32,443 nucleotides of DNA, from positions 1-32,443 of the forward strand of contig CALCGG010000008.1 in the NCBI GenBank assembly GCA_937900945.1, read 5' to 3'. This document shows, in pieces, positions 2,102-20,864 of the stretch; the stretch's first letter is position 1, and each line of letters opens with the position of its first letter. The stretch comes from an uncultured Sulfurimonas sp. Lineage in GTDB: Bacteria > Campylobacterota > Campylobacteria > Campylobacterales > Sulfurimonadaceae. The notes below the pieces were generated by a model. It worked only from the letters and a program-made list of their open reading frames with translations. It did not search any database and was not told the origin of the DNA. The position numbers and the translations under genes are program-made.

Positions 2102-3469
2102 ATAGAACTTTCAGCCCTTTCTCTTTTACCCCCGTTACTGGCAATATTTTTAGCCCTTTATTCAAAAAATGTACTTTTATCACTTCTAAGTGGAACAGTT
2201 TTAGGACTTTTTATCTTAAATGATTTTGCTTTTATTGCATCTCTAGGAGCTATTTTTGAGCTATTTTTCTCATTGCTCTCAGAGCCTTGGATACTCAAAA
2301 CTCTAGGTTTTGCTATTTTGGTCGGCAGTATAATGGCTTTGATTGAAAAATCTGGCGGGATTTATGGATTTGTACATTTTGTTCAAAATCAAAAGCAGTT
2401 GGTCACTTCTCCCCGTTCCGGTCTTTTACTTAGTTATGTAGTCGGTGTTGTTATTTTTGTCGAATCCTCCATCACTGCACTTATCTCGGGTGCAGTCGGA
2501 AAACCACTGTGTGATCATTATAAGATTCCACATGCAAAGCTGGCCTATGTGTGTGATTCTACATCTGCACCTGTTAGTTCTCTCATCGTTTTAAACGGCT
2601 GGGGAGCACTTTTACTTGGACTTATCTCTACTCAAATAACAGAGGGGATGATAAGCGGAAGCAGCATAGATATTTTAATAGATGCTGTTTTGTATAATTT
2701 TTATGCCATGAGTGCTCTGGGAGTCACTTTTTTAGTTATATGGTTTGGCATAGATATCGGTCCGATGAAATATGCCGAGTACAACCCTTCTTCACATGTA
2801 AAAGAAAATGTTAAGCAAGTAAGTAAATACTATATGATTTTGCCAATAATTCTGATGGTATTGATGGTTTTTGTATTTTTATATATCACAGGAGATGGAA
2901 ATATCTTAAAAGGGAGCGGTTCAAGTTCTATATTTTACACTATGCTGACTACGCTTATTTTTATGCTTTTTTATTATGTAGGTACAAAAAATATGAGTTT
3001 TTCAACATGGGGAAGTACCGCTTTTAAAGGGGGTGTAAAATTTGTTCCAATAGCTCTTATTTTACTCTTTGCATTTTCAATAGGAAAAGTCACGATGGAA
3101 CTTAAAACAGGACTTTATCTTGCATCTTTGGCAAGCGAAAATTTAAATGTCCACTTTTTGTCAGGAGCAATCTTTTTGCTTAGTTCTGTCATAGCATTTG
3201 CCACAGGGACAAGCTGGGGAACTTTCAGCATCATGATACCGGTTGCCGTGCCGATGGCTGTTGGCATGGATGCGAATGTTGCACTTGCCATCGGGGCTGT
3301 AATCTCTGGCGGTGTTTTTGGCGACCACTGTTCACCTATTTCGGATACAACTATCATCTCGTCTATGGCAAGTGATTGTGAAGTTATCGAACATGTAAGA
3401 ACTCAGCTTCCTTATGCCTTAATCTCTGGGCTCATTGCATTAGTCTTTTTTATTGTTTTTAGTTTTTAA
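2102..3469 (+). CDS. NhaC-type Na+/H+ antiporter; conserved reading frame extends 57 codons upstream of the first canonical start (TTG at 2273)
   Basis: Multi-TM protein with GTSWGTFSIMIPVAVPMA and GGVFGDHCSPISDTTIISSMAS motifs. In-frame upstream sequence IELSALSLLPPLLAIFLALYSKNVLLSLLSGTVLGLFIL is hydrophobic and antiporter-like; AAGGA at 2091-2095 is 6 nt before ATA at 2102. Confidence 0.8.
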   Translation: MELSALSLLPPLLAIFLALYSKNVLLSLLSGTVLGLFILNDFAFIASLGAIFELFFSLLSEPWILKTLGFAILVGSIMALIEKSGGIYGFVHFVQNQKQLVTSPRSGLLLSYVVGVVIFVESSITALISGAVGKPLCDHYKIPHAKLAYVCDSTSAPVSSLIVLNGWGALLLGLISTQITEGMISGSSIDILIDAVLYNFYAMSALGVTFLVIWFGIDIGPMKYAEYNPSSHVKENVKQVSKYYMILPIILMVLMVFVFLYITGDGNILKGSGSSSIFYTMLTTLIFMLFYYVGTKNMSFSTWGSTAFKGGVKFVPIALILLFAFSIGKVTMELKTGLYLASLASENLNVHFLSGAIFLLSSVIAFATGTSWGTFSIMIPVAVPMAVGMDANVALAIGAVISGGVFGDHCSPISDTTIISSMASDCEVIEHVRTQLPYALISGLIALVFFIVFSF

Positions 3470-3593
3470 ATAGCTTCACCTTCATTTTTTTTATATAATG
3501 TTTTACACAAAAAAAAGATAGAATGTTTCTTATAAAGTATAACCCTTGAATTGTTTTTTTAGAATCTTATCAAATAAAAGGTATATATGAATT

Positions 3594-5930
3594 ATGAATA
3601 ATTATGATAAATCTCATAGTCTGAATATAGCTACCGAAGATCGTACAATCCATATTGGCAAAAGAATAGCATATGATAAATTGACATATTTTTATCTTTC
3701 AATGCCGGTTGTAATTATAGGGCATATGCTTGGTGCTCTCCTTTTAAGTGCTTTGCTATATAGAGTCATTGACGTATACAATATATTTGTATGGTTAGGA
3801 TTAAGTGTAATATTTTTCTTTTATCGTTTTTATCATTATTATCTATTTAAACGTGAAGAAGAACATAAGAAGATGCGTGATTATAGGATTTGGATAGACC
3901 GTTTTTACGCTGATGTTCTTATAAGTGCTCTTTTGTGGGGAAGCAGTGCTATTTTGATGTTTCCAGCCGGTGATATTATGAATCAGATGATTATTGTCAT
4001 TTTCATCTTTGCTGTGAGTTTTACTTCTATGGGAAACATCGGAGCAAAACTCGACCTTCTTATCTTTTATGCATTTTTTAGTTTTTTACCCTTGATTATA
4101 CAGTTAATCGTACTTGGACAACAGCAATATGTACAATTAGGCATACTTGTAATTGCTTTAATGATCGTTCTGATGGCTGTGAGTTATTATTTTGGTAATG
4201 TAGTAAATAACTCCCTTTATAATCATCAAAATTTCATTGAAATAAAACATTCCAATGAAATTTTACAAGAACGATTTTTTTCTCTTTTTGAGCGTGCACC
4301 GGTTGGCATATTTTACTATAACGATAAACTTGAAATATTGGATTCAAATACTTTCTTTTCGGAGCTTAATGATTGTGAAAGTAAGGAAGATCTTGTAAAT
4401 AAATCTATTAAATATACGAGTAACAAAGAGCTTTTGGATAGTTACAAAATTGTTTTTCAAAATACAATCGGTGATTATAGAGGGCCGTATACTTCTTTAA
4501 TGTCTGATAAACAACTCTATGTAGACCTCAATACTGTGCCGCTTATTGATGCAGGCGGGATAGTTAAAGGCGGTATTACTATTGTAAAAGATATCACAGA
4601 AGAAGTAAATGCCAAAGAAAGTATGGTCCGTAATGCCTATTATGATATATTAACCAACATCCCTAATCGTACTTTGTTTATGGATCGTCTCAATGAAGCA
4701 ATAGAATCAAGTAAAAAAGAACACACTTTTGCCGCAGTTTTGTATATGGATTTAGATAATTTTAAAAAACTTAATGAAACTTTTGGACATGACAAAGGTG
4801 ACTCAGCCTTGAAGCAAGTTGCTGAGCGTGCTTTAAATACGATTAATGCCCAAGACACTCTTGCTCGCCTTGGAGGAGATAAGTTCGCGGTACTTCTTCC
4901 TAATCTTACTCATGATTATAATTCTGCATACGAACAAGCGATGAAAAAGGCACAAAATATTCTTGATGTTTTGATAACTCCTTTAAAAATTTCCGGAGAA
5001 GATTATCATGCCGGTGCTTCTATCGGGATTTATTTATTTCCTTCAAATGGTGCTACCGCTTACGATATATTAAAAAGAGCGGAAACAGCAATGTATGAAG
5101 CAAAAAGAACCGGACGTAATACTATTATGCCTTATCAGGATTATATGGGGGATTCTGTTGCAGAATTTATCGGTATTGATAATGATTTAAGAAAAGCTCT
5201 TCTTAATGATGAACTTATGATGTATTACCATCCACAACTGGATGTACAGACCGGTAAAATTAGCGGAGCTGAAGCGCTTATACGATGGGCACATCCAACA
5301 AGAGGAATGGTTCCACCCGCAAAATTTATCCCTATTGCTGAAGAAAGCGGCTATATTATAGAACTGAGCCATTGGATTTTGGAGCGGGTTATCAAAGATA
5401 TTAAGAGACTCAGTGAACTTCCTGGAGGATTTAAACTCAATCATATTGCAATTAATATAAATAGTAACCATTTTTTAAGACCGGATTTTACTAAAGAGTT
5501 AAAAAGCATCATAGAAAAGCATCACATTCCGGCAAAGTGGGTCGAAATTGAGATTACAGAAGGTGTGATAATGGATAATATTGACGAAGCAATTAAAAAG
5601 ATGAAAGAGTTAAAGGAATACGGAATCAAGTTTTCTATGGATGATTTTGGAACAGGTTATTCATCTCTCTCCTATCTAAGTCAACTTCCTTTCGATACAT
5701 TAAAAATCGACCAAGCCTTTGTTATGAAAATGACAAATGACATAAGCGATTCTACTTTGGTATATGCCATCATAGACATAGCTAAGAACTTTAATTTTGA
5801 AGTTGTAGCAGAGGGAGTAGAAACACTTGAAATACTGGAGCTACTCCAAAAAAGTACCTGTAATATTTACCAAGGCTTTTATGCACATAAACCAATGCCA
5901 CTTAGTGACTTTACTAAACTTATATCATAA
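3594..5930 (+). CDS. Membrane PAS-GGDEF(degenerate)-EAL protein, probable c-di-GMP phosphodiesterase
   Basis: N-terminal TM segments; PAS (RFFSLFERAPVGIFYYNDKLEILDSN); LARLGGDKFAVLLPN; EAL with GAEALIRW, EITEGVIMDN, MDDFGTGYSSLSYL, VVAEGVET. Confidence 0.92.
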   Translation: MNNYDKSHSLNIATEDRTIHIGKRIAYDKLTYFYLSMPVVIIGHMLGALLLSALLYRVIDVYNIFVWLGLSVIFFFYRFYHYYLFKREEEHKKMRDYRIWIDRFYADVLISALLWGSSAILMFPAGDIMNQMIIVIFIFAVSFTSMGNIGAKLDLLIFYAFFSFLPLIIQLIVLGQQQYVQLGILVIALMIVLMAVSYYFGNVVNNSLYNHQNFIEIKHSNEILQERFFSLFERAPVGIFYYNDKLEILDSNTFFSELNDCESKEDLVNKSIKYTSNKELLDSYKIVFQNTIGDYRGPYTSLMSDKQLYVDLNTVPLIDAGGIVKGGITIVKDITEEVNAKESMVRNAYYDILTNIPNRTLFMDRLNEAIESSKKEHTFAAVLYMDLDNFKKLNETFGHDKGDSALKQVAERALNTINAQDTLARLGGDKFAVLLPNLTHDYNSAYEQAMKKAQNILDVLITPLKISGEDYHAGASIGIYLFPSNGATAYDILKRAETAMYEAKRTGRNTIMPYQDYMGDSVAEFIGIDNDLRKALLNDELMMYYHPQLDVQTGKISGAEALIRWAHPTRGMVPPAKFIPIAEESGYIIELSHWILERVIKDIKRLSELPGGFKLNHIAININSNHFLRPDFTKELKSIIEKHHIPAKWVEIEITEGVIMDNIDEAIKKMKELKEYGIKFSMDDFGTGYSSLSYLSQLPFDTLKIDQAFVMKMTNDISDSTLVYAIIDIAKNFNFEVVAEGVETLEILELLQKSTCNIYQGFYAHKPMPLSDFTKLIS

Positions 5931-5965
5931 AAAAGTTAGAAGATTTGTAGTGGTTTTTTACTATT

Positions 5966-6000
5966 ATGACTACAGCATCTGTTGTCATTATTTTTGGTTT
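5966..6000 (+). terminator. Putative intrinsic terminator downstream of the EAL gene
   Basis: Hairpin ATGAC-T-ACAG CAT CTGT-T-GTCAT (one T:T mismatch) followed by TATTTTTGGTTTTT. Confidence 0.6.
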
Positions 6001-6058
6001 TTAAATAACTTTAATCCTAAAAAGAGTACAATCTTCTAATTTCAAAAAGGGTGTAGTC

Positions 6059-7357
6059 GTGAAAAATATTCTTATTTTTATGTTGATATTCCCTGCCTAT
6101 ATCTTAGCTTCAGATGTACAGCAGACATATAATGTTGCCATGAGCGCTTACAAATCAAAAGATTTTAAAACTTCTTATGATCTTTTATCAAAGCTTTATC
6201 TAACAAAACTCTCAGATGTAAACTTGAACTTTGCTCTTGGCATGTCCGCTTATGAAACAGGACATTACGAGATAGCTCTTGGGGCTTTTGAACGGGTTGA
6301 AATGCTTGAGCCTGCAAACTTAAGAAATAAGCTTGAAAAAGCTAGAACATATTTTATGTTAAAGATGTATGAGGATGCAGAACTTGGGTTTAAAGAAGTT
6401 CTAGACAACCCGATGATTTCCGAGAACGTACGAAAAAATATAGAATTATATCTATCTAAAGTTTCCAAGGTTCAACAAAAATCATTTACTTATGCGACGA
6501 TTAGCTTAGATTGGATTTATGATTCAAATGTAAACTATGGCTCATTGGATGATACTTACAACGTAGGTTCTACCGCATACCCAACAGCAGATGAACGCTC
6601 AGACAGAGCTCTTCAACTCTCAGCAGATATAATGAATATTTACGATATTGGTGAAGCAAACGGTTTTGCTCTCAAAAATAGAGCTATTTTATACTTGAAA
6701 GACTACCAACATGAAGATGATTATGATGTGCAATATTTGGCTTATATGCCAAGTTTGGTTTACAAATACACTCAATATACAGCAGAGATGGTTGTTGGCG
6801 TTGACGCTATGACATTGGGTAAAGAGCTTTATTTAAAAACAGTCTCTTTTATGCCAAGAATCGAGTATGCACATACCAATAGTTTAAGAAGTATTGCCTA
6901 TTTCAAATACCAAACAAAATTCTTTCAGCAATCTACTCAGTCTGATTTAAACTCAAACCATTATGAGTTGTCTTATGCTATGCAAGATATTTTATCTCCT
7001 CGCTCGTATATTCAAGTCAACATTGTCGGTGTACAAGAAAAGAAACAAAAAGGATCAAGAATAGATGTTGACTATAGTGAATATAAGCTAAATACAATTT
7101 ATGTAAATCAGTTTACACCAACTTATGGTGGGGAACTTTATGCTGAGATAAAAAAGAGAAAATATGACGACTATAGTTCTCTTTTTGATTCTACAAGAGA
7201 TGATGTCAGCCGAAGCGTAAGCGCGAGCGTAAGTGCAAAGATATTACAAACATTGCGTTTTAAAGTAAAAGCACTATACAACAGGGTTGATTCAAATCAA
7301 GACCTGTTTGGTTATCAGAAATACACGGTATCTGCCGGTATCGTAAAAACTTTTTAG
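6059..7357 (+). CDS. TPR-containing outer membrane beta-barrel-like protein
   Basis: GTG start, signal peptide (MKNILIFMLIFPAYILAS), TPR-like N-terminal half, C-terminal half rich in alternating aromatic/polar strands ending in VSAGIVKTF. Confidence 0.7.
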   Translation: MKNILIFMLIFPAYILASDVQQTYNVAMSAYKSKDFKTSYDLLSKLYLTKLSDVNLNFALGMSAYETGHYEIALGAFERVEMLEPANLRNKLEKARTYFMLKMYEDAELGFKEVLDNPMISENVRKNIELYLSKVSKVQQKSFTYATISLDWIYDSNVNYGSLDDTYNVGSTAYPTADERSDRALQLSADIMNIYDIGEANGFALKNRAILYLKDYQHEDDYDVQYLAYMPSLVYKYTQYTAEMVVGVDAMTLGKELYLKTVSFMPRIEYAHTNSLRSIAYFKYQTKFFQQSTQSDLNSNHYELSYAMQDILSPRSYIQVNIVGVQEKKQKGSRIDVDYSEYKLNTIYVNQFTPTYGGELYAEIKKRKYDDYSSLFDSTRDDVSRSVSASVSAKILQTLRFKVKALYNRVDSNQDLFGYQKYTVSAGIVKTF

Positions 7358-7367
7358 GAGAGTTGTT

Positions 7368-8177
7368 ATGGAAATATTTAAAAAAGTTATTTTATCTTTG
7401 ATCTTAGTTAGTTCATTTGTACTAGCAAACAGTGTTGGAACTATCACAGCATTAAAAGGCAGTGCTACGATTGTTCGTGATGATTCAAACATAGAAGCGA
7501 CAGTCGGTGCAAAACTAAACGAAAAAGACACCATTACAACAAAAGCAAAAAGTAAAATTCAAATTATTTTTAATGATGAAACTATTATAACCATTGGTCA
7601 AAATAGTAACTTTTCAATCTATGAGTATTTATTTGAAGAGAACAAAGCACCAAAGGCTAAGTTTGGACTATTAACAGGGGCTATTAGAACCATAACCGGA
7701 AAGATAGGAAAAATAGCACCTGATAAATTTAGTGTTGAAACTAAAACAGCACTTATTGGGATACGTGGAACAGACTTTACTATTTTAGCAAGAGAAGATG
7801 GCGGGATTAGAGCTTATTGTACTTTTGGAGCGATTAGTGTTAGTGTAAACGGTAAGATAGTTATTGTTGAACAAGGATTTTATGTTGATGTTTCTGCAGA
7901 TGGAAAAATAGGAAAACTCCAGAAGTTTACTCCACAACAGCTGAAAAAAATGAGAAGCGATAGTTTTGTAGTTGCTGAATCTACTAAAGAGACAGATCCG
8001 ACAGGATTAACAGAAACTACAGTAACTGACTCATCTGGTGATATTGATATGGTTGTTTCAGATATTACGCAGAGGACAACTACAGGTACGCAGGCAAATG
8101 CGCTAGATGCAGCTGAAGCAGCAGTTACTCCAGATCGAATAATTAATGATAATCTCGAAATAATCTCTGGACAATAA
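7368..8177 (+). CDS. FecR domain-containing periplasmic protein
   Basis: Signal peptide; GTITALKGSATIVRDD, DTITTKAKSKIQIIFNDETIITIGQNS, TALIGIRGTDFTI are FecR-domain hallmarks. Confidence 0.88.
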   Translation: MEIFKKVILSLILVSSFVLANSVGTITALKGSATIVRDDSNIEATVGAKLNEKDTITTKAKSKIQIIFNDETIITIGQNSNFSIYEYLFEENKAPKAKFGLLTGAIRTITGKIGKIAPDKFSVETKTALIGIRGTDFTILAREDGGIRAYCTFGAISVSVNGKIVIVEQGFYVDVSADGKIGKLQKFTPQQLKKMRSDSFVVAESTKETDPTGLTETTVTDSSGDIDMVVSDITQRTTTGTQANALDAAEAAVTPDRIINDNLEIISGQ

Positions 8178-8183
8178 TAGAGG

Positions 8184-10403
8184 ATGAAAGATAAATACAA
8201 GGTACTCATCTTACTCTTTTTATTTATCTCTATTCTTCTCTCGAGTGCCTATCTCTTTATGCCAAGTCACTTCCAGTCTCTGGACGACAGGGTGCGGGAT
8301 TTTTACTTTAATGTTCGTGGACCTGAAAAAGCCAGTGATGATGTGGTGATTGTAGATATAGATGAACGAAGCATCAAAGAGTTGGGTCAGTGGCCATGGG
8401 AGCGGGATAAATTTGCTCAGATTTTGACAAACCTTGGTAACTACGGAGTTGGAATCATCGGGCTGGATATGGTTTTTGCAGAGGCTGACAAAACTTCCCC
8501 GGATAAACTTGCTAAAAAATGGGGGATAAGTAAAAAAAATCTCCCTGACTATGACCTTATTCTTTCTCATGTGGTTGCGCAGACACCTACTATACTGGGC
8601 TATGTGTTTGATTTTAATGCGAAAAATACAAAAGATGCGCCGCAAATACCTGCTATCTTTATAGAAAAAAATAAGCCTGAGAGAGAGTTTTTACCAGTGG
8701 CGTATGGGGTTTTAACAAATCTTGAAGTGATTCAGAAAAATGGCTATTCAAGCGGCTACATGAACAACATCCCAGATGCAACCGGTGTTATAAGAAGTGT
8801 TCCTCTCTGCATCAAGTATGATGATATGGTTTATCCATCTCTTGCATTTGAGATGTACCGCATAGCTGTAGACTCAAAAAAAGTTATTTTAACTTACAGT
8901 AGTGGTGGTATAGAAAATATTGAGCTTGGTTCGCAAGAGATAAAAACCGATAGATTTGGGAGGTTGTATCTAAATTTCAGAGGTCCGGCTAAAAGTTATA
9001 AATATATCTCAGCAGTAGATGTCTACAATAATACAGCTGATAAAAAAAGTTTAGAGGGTAAGTTTGTACTTATCGGGACATCTGCTTATGGACTTATGGA
9101 TCTTCGTTCTACCCCTATGGACAGTGTTATACCTGGAGTCGAAGTACATGCAAATATAATTGATAATCTGTTAAATGATGATATGATGAGAAAGCCGTCA
9201 TGGGTCGAAATAGCGAATATTGCAGCTATTGTCATAATTTCTTTCATTGTGATATTTATGTACTCCAGACTCTCTTTAACAATGCTTATGATTATCTATC
9301 CTTCTACATTATTTGCGCTTTTGTATGCAAATTATTATCTCCTTTTTACAGAGCATATTATTATAAATTCACTCTTTCCACTTTCTTCAATCATATTTTC
9401 ACTTATTGGAATTTTGGGTGTGAATTATCTCTTTGAAACGCGTCAAAAAGATATGATTAAAGGAAAGTTTGCCAGTAAAGTAAGTGCAAGTGTTATGGAC
9501 GATATTCTTAAAAAATCTGATACAAATACTTTAGATGGTGCTGAAAGGGAGATTACCGTATTTTTCTCTGATGTCAGAGGTTTTACAAATATTTCTGAAG
9601 CTATGGGGAATGCAAAATCACTTATTAAATTTATGAATGAAATTATGGAGCCTATGACAGAGATAATAATACAAGAAGATGGCACTGTTGATAAATATAT
9701 CGGTGATGCGATTATGGCGTATTGGAATGCACCGCTTGATGTGGAAAATCATGCTGACAGAGCTGTCACAGCAAGTCTTAGGCAGCTTCACAATCTTAAA
9801 AATTTGAATGCAAAGCTAAGAAAAAATCCAGAATTTAAAAATGTTACTAAAATGGCAGATGAGAATAATATACCACTTGTTGATATTGGGATAGGACTCA
9901 ACAGCGGGATTGCCATAGTTGGAGAGATGGGCTCTACAAAGCGTTCTGATTATACTGCTATCGGTGATCCTATAAACATAGGATCGAGATTAGAATCTTT
10001 GTGTAAATATTATAGCTCAAGACTCAATATCTCAAACTATACAAAAAATATGTTAACCGGAAAATATATTTTCAGATTCTTAGATTTGGTAACAGTCAAA
10101 GGTAAAGTTGAACCGCTTGAGATTTGGCAGGTTCATGATTTTGATAGTGAGGAAGAGGATGAGCCACTTTTTTACTCAAGCAAAAAAGAACTTTTAAGAG
10201 AGCTTGATTTTTATCATAAGGCTATCGATCTTTACAAAACAGAAAAATTTGAAGACGCTTTAAATATTTTTAAAGTTCTTAACGAATGGGAAAATAAGAG
10301 CAATCTCAGAATTTATGATATTTACATAGAGCGTTGTGAGCACTATATGGAATTTCCTCCTGAAAATTTTAATGGTGTTTTTGTCCATACAACAAAGAGT
10401 TAG
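8184..10403 (+). CDS. CHASE2 domain class III adenylate cyclase
   Basis: CHASE2-like extracytoplasmic region (DDVVIVDIDERSIKELGQWPW), three C-terminal TM helices, cyclase motifs FFSDVRGFTNISE, VDKYIGDAIMAYWNAP, GSTKRSDYTAIGDPINIGSRLE. Confidence 0.92.
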   Translation: MKDKYKVLILLFLFISILLSSAYLFMPSHFQSLDDRVRDFYFNVRGPEKASDDVVIVDIDERSIKELGQWPWERDKFAQILTNLGNYGVGIIGLDMVFAEADKTSPDKLAKKWGISKKNLPDYDLILSHVVAQTPTILGYVFDFNAKNTKDAPQIPAIFIEKNKPEREFLPVAYGVLTNLEVIQKNGYSSGYMNNIPDATGVIRSVPLCIKYDDMVYPSLAFEMYRIAVDSKKVILTYSSGGIENIELGSQEIKTDRFGRLYLNFRGPAKSYKYISAVDVYNNTADKKSLEGKFVLIGTSAYGLMDLRSTPMDSVIPGVEVHANIIDNLLNDDMMRKPSWVEIANIAAIVIISFIVIFMYSRLSLTMLMIIYPSTLFALLYANYYLLFTEHIIINSLFPLSSIIFSLIGILGVNYLFETRQKDMIKGKFASKVSASVMDDILKKSDTNTLDGAEREITVFFSDVRGFTNISEAMGNAKSLIKFMNEIMEPMTEIIIQEDGTVDKYIGDAIMAYWNAPLDVENHADRAVTASLRQLHNLKNLNAKLRKNPEFKNVTKMADENNIPLVDIGIGLNSGIAIVGEMGSTKRSDYTAIGDPINIGSRLESLCKYYSSRLNISNYTKNMLTGKYIFRFLDLVTVKGKVEPLEIWQVHDFDSEEEDEPLFYSSKKELLRELDFYHKAIDLYKTEKFEDALNIFKVLNEWENKSNLRIYDIYIERCEHYMEFPPENFNGVFVHTTKS

Positions 10404-10409
10404 GTCTTT

Positions 10410-11153
10410 TTATAAACCTAACACAGCGTTCAAAGAGTAGCGCATATCTTCATCAAGATTTTCCATGGAGCTTAACATCCATCTTAAATAGCCGGCATCA
10501 CTGCGTGCGACTTCTTCCAAAGTTTTGCCCTTGTATTTCCCAAATTTAAACGATTTTATTATGATGGGTGTATTTGTTAAGTCCACCATCTTTTCAACCG
10601 GATTTTCACTAGGAAACTGTTTTTGCACAGCTTCTTTTAGTTTTGAGAGAAACAGTTTCAAAACCAAAACATCCCCTATGGCATCATGGGCTTTTACTAC
10701 GATATCTAAAGCATCTGCTTCTTTTTGTTCCTCTTTGTAAAGACCCAGTTTATAGCGAAAATATTGAAGTCTGTGAGCTTCTTCATCTGCAAAAATATGC
10801 TTAGCAACCCTGAGAGTATCAATCACTTTCATCTGCGTGTTAAAACCCTCTTTTTTAAGCATATCCAAGTCAAAGGGAGCGTTGTGGATAATGATATAAT
10901 TATCGTTAGTGTTGAGCTCATTGAGTCTTTTATATGCGATACTCTCTTTACATGTAGACTTGCCTTCAAGCAAATCAGGAGTTATTCCATGTACTTCCAT
11001 AGCGCCGAAGCTGATAGGCATATCGGAAGAACAAAATTCATTATGCACCTCTACCTCTTTTGAGCCTAAAACGATATATCCGAGTTGAATCACTCTGTCA
11101 AGTTCGCCTGTTCCTGTTGTTTCCGTATCTAAAATAATGTATTGTTTTGCCAA
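10410..11153 (-). CDS. 3'-5' exonuclease, DEDDh (ExoX / DNA pol III epsilon-like)
   Basis: IILDTETTG, HNAPFDLDMLKKEG, AHDAIGDVLVL motifs; C-terminal FKFGKYKGKTLEEVARSDAGYLRWML as in ExoX-type proteins. Confidence 0.85.
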   Translation of the reverse strand: MAKQYIILDTETTGTGELDRVIQLGYIVLGSKEVEVHNEFCSSDMPISFGAMEVHGITPDLLEGKSTCKESIAYKRLNELNTNDNYIIIHNAPFDLDMLKKEGFNTQMKVIDTLRVAKHIFADEEAHRLQYFRYKLGLYKEEQKEADALDIVVKAHDAIGDVLVLKLFLSKLKEAVQKQFPSENPVEKMVDLTNTPIIIKSFKFGKYKGKTLEEVARSDAGYLRWMLSSMENLDEDMRYSLNAVLGL

Positions 11154-16186: not shown

Positions 16187-17455
16187 TTAATCATCAATTA
16201 TGATGCGGTCTCTGCCGCTTTGTTTTGCTTGATATAAGGCAAAATCAGCAGATTTGACTAAATTTGATGGAATATTGCCTGTATCTGGAATGATACTGCT
16301 TACTCCAAAACTCATAGTGATAGGTCTTATCTTTATGCCATGTGCTTCAAAATTGCCTAAACTTTTAATGCCCTTTTGTATTGTCGTGCACAGTTCGTGT
16401 GCGCCATTAGTATTTGTATCATACAAGACAATAATAAATTCTTCTCCACCATATCTCGCTACAAAATCAGTACTTCTCTTAATTGAAGTTTTCATAACAT
16501 TTGCAACAATCTTTAAAACAATATCTCCTGCTGCATGTCCATAAGTGTCATTCACATGTTTAAAGTAATCAATGTCACACATGATTATAGACATATCAAC
16601 ATTTTTACGCTGTGCCATATCCCATGTATCTTTGAGATGCTGTTCAAAATATCTTCTGTTATATAATTGTGTTAATGCGTCAGTTATGGAAAGTGCTTTT
16701 AGTTTTTCGTTTACAGCTTCAAGCTCTTTAGTTCTCTCTTTTACTTTATCTTCCAGTGAGTGGTTAATAGCATCTAAATCTTTGGAATGTAGATCTATCC
16801 TCTCAACCATAGACATAATTGCATTGTGTATTACTCCAATTTCATCGGATCTTTTAGACTCCCTTAGTGAGAGATTATTGAGTTTTGGGTCATATGCCAA
16901 AACATCACGGCTTAGAACCTTTAAATCTTTAAGCTCTCTTTTAATGAGAAAAATAAATAAAAACAATAAAATAAAAGTTATCAAAAATATTGAAATAGTT
17001 GTATCTGTATTTTTTTGATGAACTTCTATTAACTCTTTATCTGAAAAATATAAATCAATAAAACCAAAATTTTCACCAGAGATAGGGTCAATTATATTTT
17101 TACTACAAAAGTTAGTATCACCTTCTTCTTTTTTTAAATGCTTTGTAGACTCTTTTATATAAGTATAAATAATATCTTTATTTACATTTTTAAGCTCTAA
17201 AAATTCCAAATCATCATTTTGCTTTACTATCTGGTTTAGGTATTCTTCATTTGCATCTTCTAATCCTAAGGAGATATTGAGTGCGATGATAGGTGAAATT
17301 GTATCTATCAGTAGATTGTTTTTTGATTTTTTTGATTTAATGAATTGATTGACAATATTATCTGAGAGTTGGTACCTCTCAGCTGATACAATCAATATGG
17401 TAAAAAGAATGATACCTATGATGATTTTGAGTTCTATGCTAAGGCTGCGTATCAA
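16187..17455 (-). CDS. Membrane-anchored diguanylate cyclase (periplasmic sensor, HAMP-like, GGDEF)
   Basis: Two TM segments flanking a sensor domain; ITDALTQLYNRRYFEQHL, KHVNDTYGHAAGD, RYGGEEFIIVL intact. TTG start overlaps the TGA stop of the upstream gene. Confidence 0.9.
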   Translation of the reverse strand: MIRSLSIELKIIIGIILFTILIVSAERYQLSDNIVNQFIKSKKSKNNLLIDTISPIIALNISLGLEDANEEYLNQIVKQNDDLEFLELKNVNKDIIYTYIKESTKHLKKEEGDTNFCSKNIIDPISGENFGFIDLYFSDKELIEVHQKNTDTTISIFLITFILLFLFIFLIKRELKDLKVLSRDVLAYDPKLNNLSLRESKRSDEIGVIHNAIMSMVERIDLHSKDLDAINHSLEDKVKERTKELEAVNEKLKALSITDALTQLYNRRYFEQHLKDTWDMAQRKNVDMSIIMCDIDYFKHVNDTYGHAAGDIVLKIVANVMKTSIKRSTDFVARYGGEEFIIVLYDTNTNGAHELCTTIQKGIKSLGNFEAHGIKIRPITMSFGVSSIIPDTGNIPSNLVKSADFALYQAKQSGRDRIIIDD

Positions 17456-18018
17456 TTTTCTTTTCCTAGATAAATTTTTGAAACTCTTAAGAGTATGTTA
17501 TCGAGTTCAACTTTATTTTTAGTTATAGCTTTCATATTTATGTATGGTAAAACTTTTCTGCCAATAAATAAAGATATTTCAACACCATTCTCCAATAATG
17601 CTTCATCGTATGACATAGTCAAAATATTTTGTTTATTTGAAAAGAGTAAGGCATCATTTATATTTTTTTCATTTGAATTAAACATAAATAGAAGTTGTGT
17701 GTTTTCACATTTAGTAATCTCTGAATAGGGGGTGCTTACTAAATGAATATGATGATTTTTAATCCCATTTGGATAATTGTTATTTACTTTATCTATTAAA
17801 GAAAGTGCTGCTGATTTATCTATATCATCATTGAGAACACAAATATCTATATTGTCTTTTATCCTTTCTTTTTGGCTGCTCATCATGATAAATCGGGGCA
17901 TTAACTTTGAGAAAATACTTAAAATATCATCATCATATGTTAAAGCATAGAGTATAGTTGTATTTAAAATGATACTAATCAGTAAAAATAAACGAATGAT
18001 ACTTTGTTTAAATTTCAT
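17452..18018 (-). CDS. YfiR-like (DUF4154) periplasmic protein
   Basis: Signal peptide; LLFMFNSNEKN...NILTMSYDEALLENGVEISLFIGRKVLPYINMKAITKNKVELDNILLRVSKIY fits the C-terminal pattern of YfiR-family proteins. Confidence 0.65.
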   Translation of the reverse strand: MKFKQSIIRLFLLISIILNTTILYALTYDDDILSIFSKLMPRFIMMSSQKERIKDNIDICVLNDDIDKSAALSLIDKVNNNYPNGIKNHHIHLVSTPYSEITKCENTQLLFMFNSNEKNINDALLFSNKQNILTMSYDEALLENGVEISLFIGRKVLPYINMKAITKNKVELDNILLRVSKIYLGKEN

Positions 18019-18616
18019 GATCTTTCTCTACATCAAGTGGTAAGGTGATTGTAGATAACGCGCCGCCATTTTGATTGCTGAGTTCTTTAAAAGATAAAAA
18101 TTCTTTTTTTAAGAAAAAAGCAAAAAATATTAAAACGATGAATACAATAAAAAAGATTTCTATGGTAATTTTAGTATTGTTTTTTAATACTTCTTTATAT
18201 CTTTCATCTGAGATATATAACTCAATTTTAGCTACATGTTCATTCATAAAACTATCTGTAATATCTTGGCTGAAATAATTTTCATCACTTTTTTTAAGTA
18301 TGTTTTTTTCATTTTCAGCTTGATAGCCGTAGATTGTAACAGCTTCTTTATCTGAAATTTTTAACATTAAAATATCTGGATTTTGCTTCGCAATTTCATC
18401 CAAGTATTCTTTATTGGCATCCAAAAGACCAAGCGACAAGTTAAGAGATATGATAGGAGATATTGTATTTATGAGCAGAGTAGTTCTTGATTTTTCTAAT
18501 TCTAAAAATTGTCTGTTTTTATTTACGCTCATCTCATATACCCCAAGTACAGAAATAAATAAAGCTAATAATATGATTGAAATTACAACTTTTGCTTCAA
18601 GACCAAATTTTTTCAT
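18008..18616 (-). CDS. Sensor-only membrane protein, paralogous to the N-terminal sensor of the GGDEF protein at 16187-17455
   Basis: LLINTISPIISLNLSLGLLDANKEYLDEIAKQN versus LLIDTISPIIALNISLGLEDANEEYLNQIVKQN in the GGDEF protein; two TM helices, no output domain; overlaps the next gene by 11 nt. Confidence 0.8.
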   Translation of the reverse strand: MKKFGLEAKVVISIILLALFISVLGVYEMSVNKNRQFLELEKSRTTLLINTISPIISLNLSLGLLDANKEYLDEIAKQNPDILMLKISDKEAVTIYGYQAENEKNILKKSDENYFSQDITDSFMNEHVAKIELYISDERYKEVLKNNTKITIEIFFIVFIVLIFFAFFLKKEFLSFKELSNQNGGALSTITLPLDVEKDHEI

Positions 18617-18651
18617 TTAAAATAACTTTTAAACCTTATATAATAATGATT

Positions 18652-18688
18652 ATAATATACTATTTTCTTATAGTTGGTAGTATATTAT
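18652..18688. promoter_or_regulatory. Perfect 11-bp inverted repeat in the divergent intergenic region, candidate operator
   Basis: ATAATATACTA (18652-18662), 15-nt spacer, TAGTATATTAT (18678-18688), located 38 nt before the likely TonB receptor ATG. Confidence 0.5.
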
Positions 18689-18725
18689 TTATTAACTTAA
18701 TCTCACATTTTTGGATAAATATCAA

Positions 18726-20864
18726 ATGAAAAAAATTATACTATCTGCCTTAATAGTTTTATCAACGTTAACTACAATCAGTGCAGACGAACTTAACAAG
18801 ATAGAGGATTTTGAATCATTGCTGAATGATGTGAGTGAGATTGCAACAAGAAAATCTTTGAATGTAGATTATATGCCATCGGTTGTAACAATCATAGATG
18901 CACAAACATACATGGATGCCGGTATCCAAAATATTGGGGAAGCTCTCGGCATGCTGCCTGGGATTCAAACCCAAACCAGTTCTATGGGCTATGCTACGAC
19001 GACAGTGCGGGGTTTAAAAACTCCAAATGCGTATATCTCAGATAAGATAAAAGTTCTTATAGACGGAGTCGCAATACATAACGAGATTTCGGGAACAAGT
19101 AACTTTTACATGGACTTTCCTATGCAGCTGGTGGACAAGATAGAAGTGCTTCGTGGACCGGGCTCTACGGTTTATGGATCGGGAGCATTTTACGGAACTG
19201 TGAATGTCATCACAAAACTCGGTAATTCAAAAAAAGAAAATCAGGTTTTTTTAGGTGGCGGCAGCTACAAATATATGACAGCCGGAACCAATGTATACAC
19301 AACTGCTGACAATTGGACTCTATTTGCAGATGGCTATTATCAGCAAAATGAGAAAAGACTGAATCAACCGGATCAGGAGCAAAGAACAGATGAACACATG
19401 GAAGATTTGTCTCTTGGCTTTAGGGCAGTAAACGGCGGTTTTGAGTTTCTAACTCGCCTCAAACAAAACACTTCCGGAAACTTTTACAGTTTTGAAGGTG
19501 AGCTTGACCCAATACCAGACCATCCTAAAGAGCATAAAAATGTATACTTTTTTGCAGAGGCTTCGTATAAGATAGATTTGAATGATTATAAGCTTGAGAC
19601 AAAAGCCGGCTTTTCACACAGAGAATCAGATATTGGAGCCAATATTGATAATGTTGCAGCAATAGCTAACAGGTTTAGTGTTGTAGGTATAAATGTGCAG
19701 GAAGGCTTTACAACGCAGGAAAAAATACAGGAACAAAATCTTGAACTTGAGAGTATCCTTACTTTTCCTGAGATAAACTCAAATGATATTTTAGTCGGAG
19801 TTGGAATTCGTAATGCGAGAGTGATGCAGGATGATTATTACAACAGTGTTGAAAATGCGATTACACAGAATTACACTGCCATTACAACTAGCGTTAATTT
19901 TGGCAGTTTTAGATATCGTCCTTCTAAAGAGCCTGCATTTTGGGCAAATCCGACAACACAGCTTTTAAAAGCAAATCTCAGTCGTACAATCGGCTATGGC
20001 TATCTTCAGGATTTGATATCACTCCACAATGATGTTGATTTATTTCTTGGAGTGCGGGTTGATGATTATTCCGATTTTGGAGCAAAATTGAGCAAGAGAG
20101 CCGGAATTGTATATAGAGCTACAGACAAAACTGTCCTAAAGCTGCTTTATGGTTCAGCTTTTAGAGCTCCTACTTTTACTGAGGCGTACTCAAACGGGCA
20201 TATCAACTTAAGACAAAGTGATGAAAACATAAAACCGGAGGAGACAAATACTTACGAAGCCGTTTGGATATACACCCCGACATTGAAGCATAAGTTTTCT
20301 TTAAATCTTTTTTACTCAGAGTTGAATAATGTAATTGATTTGGAAGAGGATGAAAGTACTCCTGCCGGGTATAAAAACTATGACAACAGAAGCTCACAAG
20401 GGCTCGAGTTTGAGTATTCTTACCGTACACAGCTTGAGCATAGTCTGTATTTTAATGCGAGCTATATAGAAACAAATTATGAGGTACCTTATGAAGGAGG
20501 AGCAAGTGCACTTCCAGAGGAGCAAACAGGCTATATCCAATCGATGCCCGATATTTCAAAACTGATGCTCAAAGCGATGTATATTTATCGTCCAACGAAC
20601 AAGCTCTCTTTTGGTACAACTTGGCATTACTATTCTAAAACAACGCCGACGGAGATAAGCTGGGTTGATGAGTCTTCTGTAGAGCCTGTAAATATTTTTG
20701 ATGAAACGCTTACTTACCGATTTTCCAGTTTAAGTGAGATGAGAGTAACTGTGAAAAATCTCTTTGATGCGGATGTGCGTCAGCCGAGTTATTACTATAA
20801 CATAAGTGGCGGAGTTCAAAGAGAAGGCAGAAATTACATGCTGAGTTATGTATATAGATTTTAA
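18726..20864 (+). CDS. TonB-dependent receptor (ATG at 18726 preferred over the TTG at 18711)
   Basis: Signal peptide MKKIILSALIVLSTLTTISA; plug motifs (SVVTIIDAQTYMDAGIQNIGEALGMLPGIQ, VEVLRGPGSTVYGSGAFYGTVNVITK-like); C-terminal NLFDADVRQPSYYYNISGGVQREGRNYMLSYVYRF. Confidence 0.93.
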   Translation: MKKIILSALIVLSTLTTISADELNKIEDFESLLNDVSEIATRKSLNVDYMPSVVTIIDAQTYMDAGIQNIGEALGMLPGIQTQTSSMGYATTTVRGLKTPNAYISDKIKVLIDGVAIHNEISGTSNFYMDFPMQLVDKIEVLRGPGSTVYGSGAFYGTVNVITKLGNSKKENQVFLGGGSYKYMTAGTNVYTTADNWTLFADGYYQQNEKRLNQPDQEQRTDEHMEDLSLGFRAVNGGFEFLTRLKQNTSGNFYSFEGELDPIPDHPKEHKNVYFFAEASYKIDLNDYKLETKAGFSHRESDIGANIDNVAAIANRFSVVGINVQEGFTTQEKIQEQNLELESILTFPEINSNDILVGVGIRNARVMQDDYYNSVENAITQNYTAITTSVNFGSFRYRPSKEPAFWANPTTQLLKANLSRTIGYGYLQDLISLHNDVDLFLGVRVDDYSDFGAKLSKRAGIVYRATDKTVLKLLYGSAFRAPTFTEAYSNGHINLRQSDENIKPEETNTYEAVWIYTPTLKHKFSLNLFYSELNNVIDLEEDESTPAGYKNYDNRSSQGLEFEYSYRTQLEHSLYFNASYIETNYEVPYEGGASALPEEQTGYIQSMPDISKLMLKAMYIYRPTNKLSFGTTWHYYSKTTPTEISWVDESSVEPVNIFDETLTYRFSSLSEMRVTVKNLFDADVRQPSYYYNISGGVQREGRNYMLSYVYRF

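Follow-up and report, generated by a model that had tools for sequence, protein, structure and literature searches.

CHASE2 is a widespread sensor domain. The factors that it recognizes are described as unknown (PMC5192318). Among the closest described counterparts of the locus studied here is a Campylobacterota gene cluster in which a CHASE2 adenylate cyclase is accompanied by a FecR "outer membrane protein," a tetratricopeptide repeat (TPR) protein, and a cyclic AMP (cAMP) phosphodiesterase, and for which one pathway has been proposed (PMC9239204). Here we analyze a related cassette from an uncultured Sulfurimonas sp. (assembly GCA_937900945.1, contig CALCGG010000008.1): three genes at positions 6059–10403 of a stretch of 32,443 nucleotides—the window, meaning the whole of the DNA analyzed—that encode an outer-membrane protein (OMP), a FecR-domain protein, and a CHASE2 adenylate cyclase. 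The cassette shares with the published cluster its phylum, the architecture of the cyclase, and the FecR and TPR neighbors; it differs in having no linked phosphodiesterase, and the passages of that report consulted mention neither Slam and the type XI secretion system (T11SS) nor a TbpB-type barrel on FecR. A preliminary description of this DNA, made from the sequence alone, had taken a defined barrel–FecR–CHASE2 signaling route to be not yet established, although FecR and CHASE2-cyclase genes were known neighbors; with the earlier report, the cluster does not count as unrecognized. Within the openly accessible literature searched, the gene cluster is already known, and it is the link to T11SS that appears to be new.

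Other described systems resemble parts of the cassette. The Burkholderia BiofilmReg operon places the gene for a LysM-FecR protein directly before that for a CHASE2 sensor, but its output is a histidine kinase and it has no OMP (PMC5192318). The Magnetospirillum gene for MtxA, an extracytoplasmic TPR-Ig protein, likewise stands ahead of a CHASE2 adenylate cyclase gene (PMC4439547), although MtxA, a soluble protein, has an Ig-like domain and lacks a barrel. With the FecA–FecR–FecI and PupB–PupR systems the cassette has in common the FecR-domain fold (the FecR of the relative L010 matches 6ovk and 4m0h) and a partner that joins a periplasmic domain to an outer-membrane barrel, whereas here there is no TonB receptor, no extracytoplasmic function (ECF) sigma factor, and no inner-membrane anchor on FecR, and the output would be a cyclase. 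Slam proteins combine a TPR domain with a 14-stranded barrel (PMC5449769), and a C-terminal eight-stranded barrel of the TbpB or factor H–binding protein (fHbp) type is a known T11SS cargo signal and fold (PMC5449769, PMC8406197, and PMC12282271). The T11SS papers PMC8406197 and PMC12282271 make no mention of FecR, cyclases, or Campylobacterota, and the Slam paper PMC5449769 left epsilonproteobacterial neighborhoods out.

Layout of the cassette and assignment of its proteins

The cassette is made up of the following features, all on the forward strand:

6059..7357, +: OMP gene (GTG start, 432 aa), predicted T11SS/Slam-family OMP with signal peptide, TPR domain, and barrel (open reading frame [ORF] list, Pfam, AlphaFold2, and homologs)
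6128..6472, +: OMP TPR domain (aa ~24–138), periplasmic (Pfam TPR matches and model helices); proposed FecR docking site
6482..7354, +: OMP 14-stranded beta-barrel (aa 142–431; AlphaFold2 secondary structure)
7368..8177, +: FecR-domain protein (269 aa; PF04773, 8e-15) with signal peptide, no lipobox, and no C-terminal TbpB-type barrel
7527..7835, +: FecR domain (PF04773 match coordinates)
8184..10403, +: CHASE2 class III adenylate cyclase (739 aa; PF05226, 2.9e-58; PF00211, 4e-18; catalytic residues)
8259..9203, +: extracytoplasmic CHASE2 domain (aa ~26–340) between transmembrane segments 1 and 2 (Pfam boundaries and hydropathy)
9546..10127, +: cytoplasmic adenylate cyclase catalytic domain (PF00211; alignment to 3r5g and 1wc1)

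All three ORFs are intact and co-directional, with gaps of 10 bp between OMP and FecR and 6 bp between FecR and cyclase; the coordinates and tight packing given in the preliminary description are exact.

To which family does the OMP belong? In its AlphaFold2 model (mean predicted local distance difference test score 90.5), TPR helices are accompanied by 14 long strands, which lie between aa 142 and 431. The TPR and barrel parts first read from the letters are therefore borne out, whereas the idea of a generic receptor gives way to membership in the T11SS/Slam family. The N-terminal TPR domain expected of that family is present (Pfam TPR matches and model helices). TPR_Slam is matched by 24 of the 29 homologs in the family alignment (best E 1.2e-9) and the Slam barrel profile SlipAM (PF04575) by 14 (best E 1.6e-14); in the OMP of locus L015 the SlipAM match reaches 37.7 bits against a cut-off of 22 and spans the whole barrel. 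An hhalign comparison of the window OMP clade with L111, a protein with a 90-bit SlipAM match, covers 420 of 432 columns (E 4e-18), and it is through its homologs and this profile comparison that the window OMP falls within DUF560/SlipAM. The best solved Foldseek matches of the model were PelBC, BcsC, and 14-stranded porins such as OmpG, all generic barrels; because no solved Slam stood among the 50 best matches listed, this ranking is uninformative, and the assignment therefore rests on sequence and strand count. In a profile search of the PDB with the OMP, the 60 matches listed were all confined to the TPR part. Membership in the Slam/T11SS family by sequence and predicted fold is well supported. 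We class the protein as a Slam homolog and not as a working T11SS, its export function being only putative. Matches to LcrH/SycD and MamA, far below cut-offs, were rejected as TPR look-alikes.

The sole hydrophobic segment of the window FecR protein is N-terminal and is read as a signal peptide, with no inner-membrane anchor. A lipobox pattern was found in none of the FecR-type ORFs collected, the window one included, as would fit proteins that are soluble cargo or free in the periplasm. Among 36 aligned proteins related to the window FecR, 21 match TbpB_B_D and 5 match FHBP_C (the factor H–binding protein family); when only complete FecR-type ORFs are counted, in a collection that includes some repeats, about half carry a cargo-type barrel. 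L010 is a close relative that has the same cassette. Its full-length FecR, as modeled, shows an eight-stranded C-terminal domain, and Foldseek matched its FecR half to PupR and other anti-sigma structures (6ovk and 4m0h) and its C-terminal half to TbpB, fHbp, NHBA, and LbpB. By profile and model, many FecR partners look like Slam export cargo. FecR-type ORFs shorter than ~310 aa are without the cargo barrel, and the window FecR is among them: it has no TbpB_B_D match, is negative for the cargo-barrel profile, and has lost the C-terminal TbpB-type barrel. A linked cargo with a TbpB/fHbp-type barrel, by which T11SS is recognized, is present in relatives and not in the window. The cassette is Slam/T11SS-like in the TPR domain and 14-stranded barrel of the OMP, in the SlipAM-type sequence of its family, and in the relatives' neighbor gene that often ends in a TbpB/fHbp-type eight-stranded barrel; it departs from that system in the FecR domain at the partner's N-terminus, in the linked CHASE2 cyclase, and in the missing cargo barrel of the window partner.

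The absence of a FecI-type partner, already remarked on for the adjacent genes, extends to the genome: no ECF sigma gene adjoins the cassette, and a genome search with PF08281 (sigma-70 region 4) found none. The single match above the cut-off is a FliA-like protein beside a FliM-like one (read from the sequences), and one match below it reads as a LuxR-type regulator. A LapA-retention-module match to FecR, far below the cut-off, was rejected as a FecR-fold look-alike. The genome has a third FecR match, a 143-aa ORF at 1513–1944 of L086 (G000:C2), with a stop inside the matched region and an OmpA-like lipoprotein ORF next to it. The same small FecR plus OmpA-like arrangement recurs in L140 and L156, which makes it possible that the L086 ORF encodes a genuine short protein and is not a pseudogene.

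Hydropathy places transmembrane segments of the cyclase at ~7–25, 341–359, 363–381, and 392–410, which assigns CHASE2 to the outer side of the inner membrane and the catalytic domain to the cytoplasm. The class III residues are present—metal-binding D463 and D508, substrate-binding K504 and T591, and N598 and R602—and align with those of the solved adenylate cyclases CyaB (3r5g) and CyaC (1wc1), in agreement with the intact metal Asp, substrate Lys, and N-x3-R motif noted at the outset. The enzyme is predicted to be catalytically competent and to make cAMP.

The genome, a 2.35-Mb draft, holds three CHASE2 cyclases, the window one included. One of the others is paired with a FecR gene directly upstream (L003, G000:C72, 232–3106), the contig piece stopping just 5′ of the pair; the remaining one (L002, G000:C79, 451–3823) lies directly behind genes for an M48-type metalloprotease-like and an SH3-like secreted protein, with no FecR on the contig piece examined. 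An apparent FecR–cyclase fusion of 1088 aa at L017 was rejected as more likely to reflect a frameshift or an error of assembly: an alanine-repeat stretch is followed, immediately ahead of the cyclase ATG, by stop codons of the FecR reading in another frame, and a fusion would also misplace CHASE2 across the membrane.

Conservation, linkage, and co-divergence

How widely is the three-gene order kept? The order is conserved. Of 42 cyclase loci related to that of the window and flanked on each side by 4 kb or more (full-flank loci), 28 carry both OMP and FecR, so the grouping is not chance. Searching 61 family genomes with the SlipAM model alone gave 14 matches, every one (14/14) beside a FecR gene; in 8 of them the short locus also shows the cyclase. 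Of 249 genomes sampled across the phylum, 26 have a member of the OMP family, 38 have CHASE2, and 23 have both. CHASE2 is thus present in 23/26 genomes with the OMP versus 15/223 without it (Fisher P = 2e-19), and by genus the co-occurrence is 17/18 (P = 2e-7); relatedness inflates both values. Of the 29 OMP loci in this sample, 25 adjoin FecR, or 27 when neighbors ending in a cargo-type barrel are counted, and OMP and CHASE2 lie within 5 kb of each other, by coordinates, in 18 of the 23 genomes that have both. That the three genes form a conserved, co-inherited cassette is well supported.

Pairs also occur. OMP and FecR are found together without an adjacent cyclase at L106, L107, L109, L110, L136, and other loci, and L134 has a FecR and CHASE2 cyclase pair with no OMP in the operon. 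Because it pairs with either partner in the absence of the other, FecR looks like the hinge of the cassette.

Some loci hold large additional genes. Proteins of 956 and 1128 aa are encoded between FecR and cyclase at L021 (2086–4956) and L061 (1524–4910), loci without the OMP; they have no Pfam match and are possible exported partners. In several loci with a short FecR (L097–L106 and L108), a large upstream ORF ends just before the OMP gene and is a candidate alternative cargo or partner, with a Big_5 domain in L097 and a weak, below-cut-off beta-propeller match in L098.

Have the parts diverged together? Patristic distances over 35 loci with complete gene sets correlate most strongly between TPR and FecR (rho 0.72), followed by barrel and CHASE2 (0.69) and FecR and CHASE2 (0.58), compared with 0.33 for the two domains of the cyclase, CHASE2 and catalytic. 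Simple distances give the same pattern more weakly, and the contrast survives column bootstraps and the removal of any one taxon. The best correlations are those between envelope parts, which suggests an adjustment of CHASE2 to FecR and the barrel.

A phosphodiesterase/HD-GYP neighbor is found at 29/42 full-flank cyclase loci, and no cAMP phosphodiesterase is among the genes adjoining the window cassette. The window genome encodes, unlinked to the cassette, a GAF–HD-GYP–class-II cAMP phosphodiesterase (PDEase_II) fusion (L093, G000:C177, 352–2274). This protein joins cAMP and cyclic di-GMP (c-di-GMP) hydrolase folds, and in relatives a PDEase_II-GAF-HD-GYP protein adjoins the cyclase.

A possible trans-envelope relay and its rivals

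What might the cassette do? We propose a T11SS-derived relay across the envelope that runs from the OMP TPR domain through FecR and CHASE2 to cAMP, a reading that we judge about evenly poised between right and wrong. It is built on the parts themselves, the homology and predicted fold of the OMP, the linkage, co-occurrence, and co-divergence of the genes, and the predicted catalytic competence of the cyclase. The module would derive from a type XI (Slam) secretion pair. FecR, with a signal peptide and neither lipid nor membrane anchor, would be a free periplasmic adaptor, either derived from T11SS cargo or interchangeable with it, the export barrel being kept in many relatives and lost in the window. 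We infer the docking steps, the direction of the signal, its stimulus, and its effector: FecR would dock on the OMP TPR domain and on periplasmic CHASE2, and how much cAMP is made in the cytoplasm would then depend on the state of the outer-membrane channel, whether set by ligand, cargo passage, or envelope stress. The cAMP would be removed by the class-II phosphodiesterase/GAF/HD-GYP protein, whose gene adjoins the cyclase gene in many relatives and is located elsewhere in the window genome, and this protein would couple the output to c-di-GMP turnover.

The output itself was part of the preliminary description. Since the conserved unit has an intact cyclase and a FecR protein without a sigma factor, a cAMP output remains its natural reading. 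The Crp-family regulators that the preliminary description suggested looking for are present, as three Crp/Fnr-type proteins, and all three are without the phosphate-binding arginine at what we take to be the position of Escherichia coli CRP Arg82 (sequences read against the CRP motif). A fourth protein with a cyclic nucleotide–binding domain is of the CBS/nucleotidyltransferase type.

A wider version, which we hold only tentatively, is that the secretion channel (T11SS/Slam) and its FecR-headed cargo are the sensory front end of the cAMP pathway, with CHASE2 reading the passage, retention, or surface engagement of the cargo. The window would then be a derived form in which FecR is now a dedicated relay. 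If this were true, cAMP would give the bacterium a measure of how its own secretion machinery is working or of what the protein it exports encounters. More generally, if FecR is the periplasmic input of CHASE2 and a Slam-type channel is the partner of FecR, CHASE2 receptors gain a testable input, T11SS acquires a regulatory role, and Campylobacterota have a concrete cAMP pathway instead of "four genes in a cluster."

Several observations weigh against the proposed relay. Many cyclases of the family have neither OMP nor FecR alongside, and in L004, the locus of the closest cyclase (81%), the EAL, OMP, and FecR genes are missing between antiporter and cyclase with the flanks conserved (3288–6727). 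The L004 genome does, however, have an OMP–FecR pair elsewhere (L152), as do most of the examined genomes with lone-cyclase loci (e.g., L004, L006, L008, L009, and L014). The window OMP by itself gives no direct SlipAM match in single-sequence hmmscan. A profile search found no TbpB_B_D protein at all in the window genome, and because the window FecR also has no cargo barrel, export is not the evident job of the OMP here. As read from their sequences, the Crp-like proteins found here all lack the cAMP arginine. The difference between the FecR–CHASE2 and CHASE2–cyclase correlations is modest in simple distances (bootstrap mean 0.2, minimum 0.02), and joint transfer of linked genes can also yield co-divergence.

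The strongest rival, although we think it rather improbable, is a secretion checkpoint: the cyclase would gauge how much FecR, as present or former T11SS cargo, is waiting in the periplasm, and cAMP would report export and adjust the expression of surface proteins, with no outside signal. Among complete relatives of the window FecR, about half bear the cargo-type barrel, which fits such a checkpoint, as does the stand-alone OMP–FecR unit of several genomes; the window FecR, however, is without the barrel though OMP and cyclase are kept, which argues against export control as the sole role here, and short barrel-less FecRs are common and still accompany the OMP. It is unlikely, in our view, that the genes merely share an operon, with a T11SS-like OMP and FecR serving surface display, a CHASE2 cyclase answering its own periplasmic ligand, and linkage reflecting joint transfer and co-regulation. 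Each pair does occur without the third member, neighborless cyclases are common, and horizontal transfer of the cluster has been inferred (PMC9239204). Yet the co-occurrence of OMP and CHASE2 holds where they are unlinked (5/23 genomes), the divergence of CHASE2 tracks that of FecR and the barrel more closely than that of the catalytic domain in the same protein, and in Burkholderia genes for CHASE2 histidine kinases have FecR genes beside them too (PMC5192318). Far less probable than any of these is that the OMP is a polysaccharide-export or porin-type protein (a PelB/BcsC/PgaA-like TPR-barrel) and the cassette a regulator of matrix export. The Foldseek matches to PelBC, BcsC, and OmpG and the EAL/GGDEF gene directly upstream in the window would suit it, but the barrel has 14 strands and not 16, the family matches SlipAM and not exporter profiles, the Foldseek ranking carries no information without a solved Slam among the 50 best listed, and no polysaccharide genes were recognized nearby.

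Neighboring features of the window

Directly upstream of the cassette, the window encodes a GGDEF-EAL protein with a PAS domain (3594–5930). This gene is absent at the equivalent place in L010 and is therefore probably outside the cassette. Downstream, the cyclase gene (8184–10403, +) converges with a gene at 10410–11153 (−), and a consensus scan placed one further feature between them:

10399..10422, −: weak terminator-like hairpin between the convergent genes

The terminator consensus scan found 3 such elements against 1.8 expected, which is not significant, and the promoter and terminator scan of the window gave no meaningful excess over chance. A second envelope-to-second-messenger cluster lies at 16187–20864, where a TonB-dependent receptor gene is divergent from genes for a GGDEF protein and a YfiR/HmsC-like periplasmic protein, an arrangement like that of YfiBNR.

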